In this document: piece by piece, positions 32,981 through 34,926 of the stretch
How the letters are laid out: each line of letters starts with the position of its first letter
Numbering within the stretch: position 1 is the stretch's first letter
From: a virus
Reading direction: 5' to 3' (one strand)
Length of the DNA: 64,000 nt
IMG/VR virus record: IMGVR_UViG_3300032360_001735
Coordinates: 1 to 64,000 of that record
Position numbers and translations under genes: made by a program
Notes under the pieces: generated by a model
The model's input: only the letters and a program-made list of their open reading frames with translations
Databases searched by the model: none
Told to the model about the DNA's origin: nothing

Positions 32981-33057
32981 TGGCGGGAGCGACGGGACTC
33001 GAACCCGCGACCTCTGGCGTGACAGGCCAGCGCTCTGGCCGATTGAGCTACGCCCCC
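32981..33057 (-). tRNA. tRNA-Asp (GUC)
   Basis: 77-nt cloverleaf with anticodon loop CTGTCAC, a strong anticodon stem (CTGGC/GCCAG), T arm GGGTTCGAGTCCC and encoded CCA. Only 5 nt lie between its CCA and the next gene's ATG, so 3' trimming would create a nearly leaderless mRNA. Confidence 0.95.
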
Positions 33058-33404: not shown

Positions 33405-33413
33405 AGGGTAAAG

Positions 33414-33848
33414 ATGACTGTCTTAGACGCCACCTCTCATTTATTCGAATGGTTCAAAACTCATGATTCCTTCGAGGAAAAAAACGTGAAGGATGTTATT
33501 CTTATATCTGACACTCCAGAAAGAGACAAAGCAGCCTTTTTGTGTTGTTTGGACGAGCTCGTGACAAATGAGATTCTTGGAGTAACAGAAATAAAAGAAA
33601 GAAAAATTTGGGTACTCAAAAAAAGTCTAGAATCCTACGATCAAGGCGTTGATATCCCTTATCCTTTAGCTCTAGAAATAGCAAGCTGCATTGGTAGAAT
33701 GTGTACGGTTCTGGGTGACCGCTCCGATGAGGCTGACCCCAAGTCTCTTACTACTAAAGACATAATGAACCTAACATTCATATGCAAAACCCTACAAGGA
33801 CCGCCTGATAGTACGACAGATGCGCCACCCCCAGAAATTTCTCTTTGA
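33414..33848 (+). CDS. hypothetical protein, 144 aa
   Basis: Starts MTVLDATSHLFEWFK. The ATG at 33414 directly follows a -10 box and is preferred over a longer frame from 33201, which would run across the AT-hook gene. Charged alpha-helical protein with possible winged-helix features (DELVTNEILGVTEIKER). The C-terminal end is Pro-rich. Function unknown. Confidence 0.6.
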   Translation: MTVLDATSHLFEWFKTHDSFEEKNVKDVILISDTPERDKAAFLCCLDELVTNEILGVTEIKERKIWVLKKSLESYDQGVDIPYPLALEIASCIGRMCTVLGDRSDEADPKSLTTKDIMNLTFICKTLQGPPDSTTDAPPPEISL

Positions 33849-33849
33849 C

Positions 33850-34285
33850 TTTCTGATAGAAGGGCTTTACTATCTGTCAAAAGGTGCGAATCCTTTTCAG
33901 CCCGCCGAGAGCAAACGGTAGGGTTTCCCAAGGATGACCATAGCGGCACGCTGAGCCATCAGCTGATTCCAAAGGGCTGGCTCCTCTAAGCACAGAGGAT
34001 AAAGGACGGGTGGGTAATTCCCACCGCAGTAACCCGGCGTGAGCGGTTGACCACTGTAATGAGTTTTTAAGCATAGTCCCTCAACCTTTTTATAAAGGTA
34101 AGTGGTTCCAGTTTTATTACTGGTTGTGTACTGTCTTCTGAATGTCCCATCAGAGTTTTAAAACACTGGGTCCAGAGAAAGAAGAAGCATGCTACATGGA
34201 ATCCCCTACACAGGGGGTTTCATGTCTCATCCGAAAAAGAAGCAATCATGCTTTGGGTTACTAAAAGATTTGACAGGAGCGACAT
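33850..34285 (+). ncRNA. large structured RNA candidate, about 430 nt
   Basis: No gene fits this 470-nt gap. It contains nested helices: CTGTCAAA (33874-33881) can pair with TTTGACAG (34269-34276) and close almost the whole region. Inside are a hairpin with TGCGAAT loop (33879-33897), CAGCCC/GGGCTG (33898-33903 with 33974-33979), CCTCT/AGAGG, GGTGGG/CCCACC with loop TAATT (34009-34025), CCTTT/AAAGG, CCAGT/ACTGG (34108-34123), a 12-bp hairpin (34195-34224) with two G-U pairs that form only on the plus strand, and AAGCATG/CATGCTT (34185-34191 with 34247-34253). Family not identified. Confidence 0.65.
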
Positions 34286-34320
34286 AAGGTTGTAATTTTT
34301 ATTAATATATATAAGCCAAA

Positions 34321-34926
34321 ATGAAAACATTGTTTATTGGAATAAGTGGCGTGGCCGCATCAGGTAAGGATTTATTTTTCAACCTGCTGAAGAACGAGTT
34401 GGACAAAAGAGGAATCGCTGCTCATAAATATTCACTAGCGGACTCCCTCAAGGGGGAGGTTAATGAATACCTCAAGGAGCACCATCGAGTAGATATATTT
34501 AACTGCACCAGAAGAGAGAAGGATTCTGTCAGGCCGTTTTTAGTATTCCACGGAAGCATGAAGAGGGCTGCGTCTGAAGGTAGACACTGGATAGAAATTT
34601 TAGACAAAAAAATAACAAAAGAAAAATTAACAGGAGTTGTTTGTGTTACTGATATAAGGTACGATGAATTTGAAGGGGACGAAGTAGACTGGATAAAGGA
34701 AGAACTTGGAGGGGTACTTGTCCACATAAAGAGAGAAGCAGTAGAGCCAGCTAACGAGGAGGAAGAGAGACAAGACCCGTCTTTAATAAATAAAAGCAAT
34801 TATAAAATCGAATGGCCCACGTTACAAGGGTGTCAAAAGGACATAGAAAGCCAGCTAACAAAAGAATATATAATAAAATTCTCTGATTGGCTTTTAAATG
34901 AAAACACCAGACGACTTCCTAGCTAA
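34321..34926 (+). CDS. deoxynucleoside monophosphate kinase-like protein, 201 aa
   Basis: Starts with a P-loop (ISGVAASGKDLFFNLL) as in T4 gp1-like dNMP kinases, which prime dNMPs with ATP. Internal CTRREKDSVRPFLVFHG and VVCVTDIRYDEFEGD resemble the NMP-binding and LID regions. The C-terminus is helical. Works with RNR and dCMP deaminase. Follows the structured RNA by 35 nt. Confidence 0.75.
   Translation: MKTLFIGISGVAASGKDLFFNLLKNELDKRGIAAHKYSLADSLKGEVNEYLKEHHRVDIFNCTRREKDSVRPFLVFHGSMKRAASEGRHWIEILDKKITKEKLTGVVCVTDIRYDEFEGDEVDWIKEELGGVLVHIKREAVEPANEEEERQDPSLINKSNYKIEWPTLQGCQKDIESQLTKEYIIKFSDWLLNENTRRLPS

Follow-up and report, generated by a model that had tools for sequence, protein, structure and literature searches.

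The 64,000-nt stretch analysed here (the window) belongs to a record of an uncultured virus of bacteria that is 70,410 bases long. Its genes run leftward up to approximately 33.3 kb and rightward from position 33,413 on, and according to translations and family assignment they encode a ribonucleotide reductase (NrdA and NrdB, names that follow from the sequence and from annotated NrdB matches), a sigma-factor-like protein, a dNMP kinase, RIIA and an ATP-dependent DNA ligase. The gap between a gene of the P0010 family (F0, 33414-33848) and the dNMP-kinase gene, which starts at 34321, contains no conserved gene. The longest frame on its minus strand (86 codons, 33900-34157) is open in just one of 34 homologues and the longest frame on its plus strand in six, so coding on either strand was rejected and the earlier statement that the gap is free of genes was borne out. 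A tRNA-Asp gene at 32981-33057 lies on the strand opposite to the RNA described below; the other tRNAs of the window are far off, and most of the corresponding loci that were scanned have no tRNA.

By sequence comparison, this phage group is only remotely related to phages in culture. A terminase from one of the sister records is about 25% identical at best to cultured-phage terminases, and the best match of NrdB among 50,697 phage records, 45.8% identical, is inside a record that resembles a bacterial chromosome. Record CAKLQH020000007.1 (L109), which is listed as an Acinetobacter phage, contains chromosomal genes, the nuo operon among them, and looks like a bacterial chromosome. When species genomes were searched with NrdB, a single contig was found (L127), filed under a Woesebacteria genome; its NrdB is 71% identical to that of the window and groups with phage NrdBs. 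This contig is either a phage contig that was binned there by chance or a hint to the host.

Loci for comparison were gathered from IMG/VR by a scan for NrdB, which yielded 80 loci, and with two RNA patterns, which added further contigs. Using nhmmer, the RNA of the gap, here called type I, was found in 38 different records, one of them the window, and as one truncated copy (L094). The 38 records have a mean pairwise identity of 55% and form 33 clusters at 95% and 23 at 75% identity. Alignments A1 and A2 contain 34 rows, the near-duplicates L063, L067, L088 and L092 being left out, and in these homologues the conserved stretch is 340-431 nt long. Six of 12 full records searched with the core model R1 have the type I RNA, in one copy each. 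Short chance matches or nothing resulted when type I and the two further types described below were compared by blastn with cultured phages and when a single type I RNA was compared with plasmids. A pattern for hairpin P2 (Table 1) had no match in 84,980 species genomes; this was a strict pattern, its narrower form matching just 18 of the 38 known cases. No description of the type I RNA was found in the open-licence literature that was searched.

Table 1 Positions of the type I RNA and its parts in the window, and of type II and type III RNAs in sister phages
Feature	Position	Strand	Basis and remarks
-35 box TTGACT	33845..33850	+	putative own sigma-70-like promoter of the RNA; 17-nt spacing to TACTAT
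-10 box TACTAT	33868..33873	+	promoter scan; probable transcription start near 33880
Type I structured noncoding RNA	33880..34256	+	nhmmer homologues, covariation, G-U bias; ends probable
P1 hairpin AAAAGG-TGCGAAT-CCTTTT	33879..33897	+	73.3% of cells paired; double changes in 4/6 pairs
P2 hairpin, bulged	33899..33925	+	conserved GAGAG-type loop; 94.7% of cells paired; double changes in 4/9 pairs
P5 hairpin GCTG-AGCCAT-CAGC (window form)	33950..33963	+	by-eye alignment with sub-groups
P6 hairpin TCCTCT/AGAGGA	33982..33999	+	minimum-energy fold, alignments; variable in homologues
PA long-range pairing	34004-34007/34076-34079	+	97.8% of cells paired; double changes in 3/4 pairs
P7 hairpin	34009..34025	+	99.0% of cells paired; double changes in 6/6 pairs
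P9, 7-bp helix enclosing pseudoknot	34049-34055/34101-34107	+	99.2% of cells paired; double changes in 6/7 pairs
pkC pseudoknot	34060-34063/34080-34083	+	97.0-97.8% of cells paired; double changes in 2/4 pairs
Small hairpin	34084-34086/34097-34099	+	70.6% paired
H-type pseudoknot, helix 1	34137-34141/34150-34154	+	87.7% of cells paired; double changes in 4/5 pairs
H-type pseudoknot, helix 2	34146-34149/34167-34170	+	82.2% of cells paired; double changes in 3/4 pairs
P14 C/G-rich 3' hairpin, terminator-like	34198-34206/34213-34221	+	helix 11; 74.2% paired
Promoter-like TTGACA-17-TAATTT before downstream gene	34270..34298	+	read from sequence; absent from promoter-scan list
Type II RNA, ~400-440 nt	L068:2249-2689	+	same slot; own covariation
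Type III RNA-like stretch	L081:4636-5030	-	slot before dNMP kinase; also L071, L082

The gap holds a real, conserved and structured RNA on the plus strand. Its clearest parts are P7, P9, PA and pkC, of which PA crosses P9 and pkC crosses PA, so that the core is pseudoknotted. Across the homologues PA occurs in the pair forms GG/CC, AG/CU and AA/UU, and invariant stretches are present around 34056-34067 and 34073-34082. For the 24 core pairs, 93.4% of the pairings in the 34 rows are standard, against 73.8% after shuffling and 38-48% after sliding, and 184 doubly changed cells were counted, against 61.8 in shuffled and 15-42 in slid controls. For the whole RNA, with 62 pairs in 11 helices and the pseudoknots included, the corresponding values are 87.5% standard pairs against 73.8% (shuffled) and 39-52% (slid), with 338 cells changed on both sides where the two controls have 115.5 and 56-91. 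Since the tested structure was drawn from the same alignments, the percentage paired favours it, and the counts of double changes are the safer measure. The low pairing in the weaker helices (P1, the small hairpin and the 3' hairpin) is in part due to misalignment.

Folding energy is of little help here. The plus-strand fold has a z score of -2.5 against dinucleotide shuffles, with 1 of 100 shuffles as good, and that of the reverse strand is also -2.5, with 2 of 100 as good; since both strands fold equally well, energy alone decides nothing about an RNA. The strand follows instead from the pairs themselves, as G-U cells far exceed A-C cells both over all pairs (216 vs 48) and in the core (66 vs 6), which assigns the fold to the plus strand. 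Under a tree-based null for covariation, 14 pairs reached E ≤ 0.5, with P7 pairs among the top ones; three of the 14 are same-letter combinations that do not form base pairs, for which misalignment or relatedness is suspected, and the case therefore rests on the shuffled and slid counts and on the strand test. The helix scan also listed many weak U-rich pairings, which were taken as chance. The preliminary description had proposed a large structured noncoding RNA at this place and had named a lack of covariation in homologues as evidence against it; with covariation present in the 34 rows and the strand test in agreement, that proposal is upheld.

Upstream of the RNA, the pattern TTGAC, 16-18 nt, TANNNT is found in 21 of the 34 homologues, TTGAC alone in ten and neither in three. 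The full promoter pattern is thus absent from 13 of them, and the -10 box of the window is not strong. The promoter scan gave three promoter-like sites, and shuffles have nearly as many (mean 2.1), so that the recurrence of the pattern among the homologues carries more weight than the scan. The 5' end of the type I RNA was set by the promoter, with position 33879 of P1 falling at the probable transcription start, and the 3' end by the end of conservation; if the 3' hairpin acts as the terminator, the latter could already lie near 34225. No clear terminator was recognized, as conservation runs approximately 30 nt beyond this terminator-like hairpin. For this reason, and with the dNMP kinase gene directly downstream in 14 of the 38 records, transcription may read through into the arm.

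Several details given earlier for this region can now be corrected. The proposed boundaries, 33850-34285, do enclose the RNA but extend too far on either side, taking in both promoter regions. A 12-bp hairpin, here P14, proved real; in the window it has further pairs beyond those listed in Table 1. Most rows retain the inner C/G pairs, whereas the outer pairs align poorly. An 8-bp helix suggested to join both ends (33874-33881 with 34269-34276) is not conserved: end-to-end pairing in the 34 homologues averages no longer than in shuffles (5.29 vs 5.22) and reaches 9 only in the window and L048. In this helix, the nucleotides that directly follow the -10 box would pair with TTTGACAG, a segment that includes TTGACA, the -35 box of the next promoter-like sequence; the helix was rejected. 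The T-loop-like TGCGAAT loop was found only in the window (L001) and L002, i.e. in 2 of 34 rows, and neither ARAGORN nor Rfam detected a tmRNA in the window. A reading as a T-loop or tRNA-like element or as a permuted tmRNA was accordingly dropped; tmRNA is a large RNA with pseudoknots too, but is marked by a tRNA-like domain with a T-arm and by a tag reading frame, and in type I the T-loop is not conserved.

That the RNA could be placed in no named family was likewise confirmed, since a cmscan of 33840-34325 against Rfam at E ≤ 10 gave leuA-Halobacteria as its single match (16.8 bits, not above chance) and the type I homologues also matched no family, GOLLD and ROOL included. Membership of GOLLD was rejected because its Rfam model gave no match even at E 10 and because of the length of 340-431 nt, and membership of ROOL because its model matched neither the window nor the homologues. 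Two homologues reached 18.9-19.5 bits with STnc100, far from the gathering score of 47; the alignment leaves out 126 model positions between its two ends, and what is matched is mostly the C/G-rich 3' hairpin. Membership of STnc100 was rejected as well. Motifs resembling a cobalamin riboswitch and a group I intron had been noticed by eye and found no support in Rfam.

The manA, wcaG and PhotoRC-II motifs are smaller than the type I RNA, which matches none of them and differs in not being tied to one gene. They are described as structured RNAs mainly from marine phages and metagenomes, where manA and wcaG of cyanophages are connected with exopolysaccharide and metabolic genes and PhotoRC-II with psbA (PMC2864571). 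In kind, type I is comparable to GOLLD, being a large, ornate and pseudoknotted phage RNA, and to ROOL, as a phage RNA with several pseudoknots. In the account of PMC12286853, GOLLD has an Rfam entry, one studied representative comes from a marine sample, and many GOLLDs are longer than 800 nt and located near tRNA islands, while ROOL is presented as an RNA of phages and prophages that contains several pseudoknots and for which no protein partner is known, the one studied being 659 nt long; the functions of both are given there as still open. Type I is approximately 375 nt long. RNA-only, cage-like assembly is a feature of GOLLD and ROOL.

Sister phages that do not have type I carry another conserved stretch in the same slot between F0 and the dNMP kinase gene. 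This type II was found at 20 NrdB loci and in five further records (among them, besides L068, L004, L005, L014, L019, L027, L029, L032, L034, L036, L041, L045, L047, L052, L054, L056 and L064). Its alignment A3 comprises 17 of 23 rows, from which L115 and L116 were left out as duplicates and L014, L017, L047 and L052 as too divergent. Over 31 pairs, which form covarying helices of its own, 96.1% of the pairings are standard, against 87.1% in shuffled and 34-47% in slid controls, and both sides are changed in 50 cells, where these controls have 10.8 and 4-10. A third type is represented by three records with two distinct sequences; it lies on the same strand as the dNMP kinase gene, is preceded by a promoter-like TTGACA-17-TAGGCT and folds with a z score of -3.4. 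Neither type II nor type III matched Rfam above chance. Types II and III show no detectable sequence relationship to type I. At E ≤ 1, no type II locus is recovered with the core model R1, and the type I profile reached only E 2.7 or worse on slot sequences; types I and II may yet have a remote common origin. The two did not turn up in one and the same record: R1 also found no type I in four full records of type II or type III carriers (G006, G007, G008 and G011), and the best type II match in six full type I records was 38 nt long (E 0.001).

Counted by record, type I is present at 32 of the 80 NrdB loci, type II at 20 and type III at three, and at 23 the slot is not covered or not settled. 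In L018 and L021, which have identical NrdBs, just 138 nt separate F0 and the dNMP kinase gene; types I and II were not found there, and type I was also absent from the full record of L018. Carriers of types I and II are intermingled on the NrdB tree, whose support is modest, and this suggests repeated replacement of the RNAs in the slot, a pattern to which recombination of NrdB could also give rise.

The position of type I itself is not fixed either. In most records it follows F0, and in seven of 38 (L031, L048, L049, L055, L060, L093 and L095) it is located before F1, in six of these directly after F9, which is dUTPase-like. This second site represents a relocation of the RNA gene inside one phage group. 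The next frame downstream in the 38 records is dNMP kinase in 14, F1 in seven, F20 in six, a convergent gene in six and another gene in five. From our own reading of the sequences, we take F9 to be a dUTPase and F5 a deaminase, and F20, F27 and F38 to be glycosyltransferase-like.

Taken together, these data are best explained by type I being an independent, trans-acting large phage RNA that is kin in kind to GOLLD and ROOL and belongs to neither family, a reading to which we give a probability of roughly 0.6. The RNA would have a sigma-70-like promoter of its own, from which the host RNA polymerase would produce it, probably early in infection, as a discrete molecule of about 345-375 nt. Action in trans as a folded RNA is the best-supported part of this reading; the RNA would work either by itself or at the core of an assembly made of RNA and protein or of RNA only. 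What it does there can be guessed from the analogy with GOLLD and ROOL, which would point most readily to takeover or protection of the host's RNA or translation machinery. Few classes of large structured RNA are known from phages, and type I would be a further class, which is short enough for structure work in vitro and combines strong covariation with a simple genomic setting.

The preserved fold of type I and its replacement by two other RNAs in sister phages hint at an important task, and types II and III, as the occupants of its slot there, may share this task. A more far-reaching proposal, which is tentative and clearly less probable than a trans-acting role of type I as such, is that the three types are alternative occupants of the slot with the same essential job, i.e. 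a system of non-orthologous RNA replacement, and that they perhaps form self-assembling particles or act as type-specific determinants of immunity or incompatibility. If three unrelated RNAs truly interchange at one site, the features they share would indicate their function, and comparing them could reveal what is beyond the reach of any single family.

The foremost competing explanation is that the RNA is linked to a replication origin, where it would prime or regulate replication in the manner of plasmid RNAII or serve as a replication or incompatibility determinant, and repeated replacement would suit incompatibility types. The cumulative GC skew of the window has its minimum and turn at 32-34 kb, where the two arms diverge, and in both neighbourhoods the RNA is within a few genes of this point. 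The 144-residue product of the adjacent F0 gene is predicted to be winged-helix-like (pLDDT 86), and one of 25 members of its family weakly matches a replication-initiation family (E 0.0035); compared with the PDB, the predicted fold gave weak matches only, none at E ≤ 0.001. However, GC skew tracks the strand switch of the genes and is by itself no mark of an origin, and Rfam gave no match to a known primer RNA. A role at an origin is rather unlikely.

A cis-acting 5' leader, be it a riboswitch, an attenuator or a stabilising structure, could control the arm's genes, above all dNMP kinase and the genes of nucleotide metabolism that follow it. Such a role would agree with the direct position before dNMP kinase in the 14 records mentioned, with the co-directional gene that follows in most others, and with the lack of a clean terminator between RNA and gene in the window. 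On the other hand, the next gene belongs to several unrelated families and is convergent in six records, the RNA occurs in two neighbourhoods, and in the window a promoter-like sequence separates it from the downstream gene. The RNA is therefore not the leader of one gene; a riboswitch or leader of this kind was rejected, no constant co-directional downstream gene being found, and a cis-acting role in general appears somewhat less probable still than one at an origin.

The compact multi-pseudoknot core with its invariant stretches would also fit a ribozyme or an RNA involved in RNA processing, but this is quite improbable, as Rfam gave no match to ribozyme, RNase P, tmRNA or intron families and the RNA is placed between genes and not inside one. 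That the gap holds no functional RNA at all, and merely a repeat structure at the DNA level, the remnant of a gene or a fold arising by chance, is hardly tenable even though the plus strand folds no better than the minus strand, given the covariation with an excess of G-U over A-C and the conservation in 38 records at 55% mean identity with no conserved frame.

Some further observations concern the sister phages. In the type II RNA of L068 (2249-2689) the sequence GGATAAGCAGTCA is present twice, and a CTTATCC stretch could pair with either copy, which may possibly constitute a switch. Genes for tmRNA were found in L014 (1603-2019), L032 (17496-17922), L054 (15326-15755), L056 (15138-15567), L064 (15645-16074), L068 (15907-16336) and L007 (11023-11435), and that of L014 shares its gap with the type II RNA. 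Similar tag peptides were obtained wherever ARAGORN read them, i.e. in all of these except L068, which was found by Rfam, and such a phage tmRNA tag might help to find the host.
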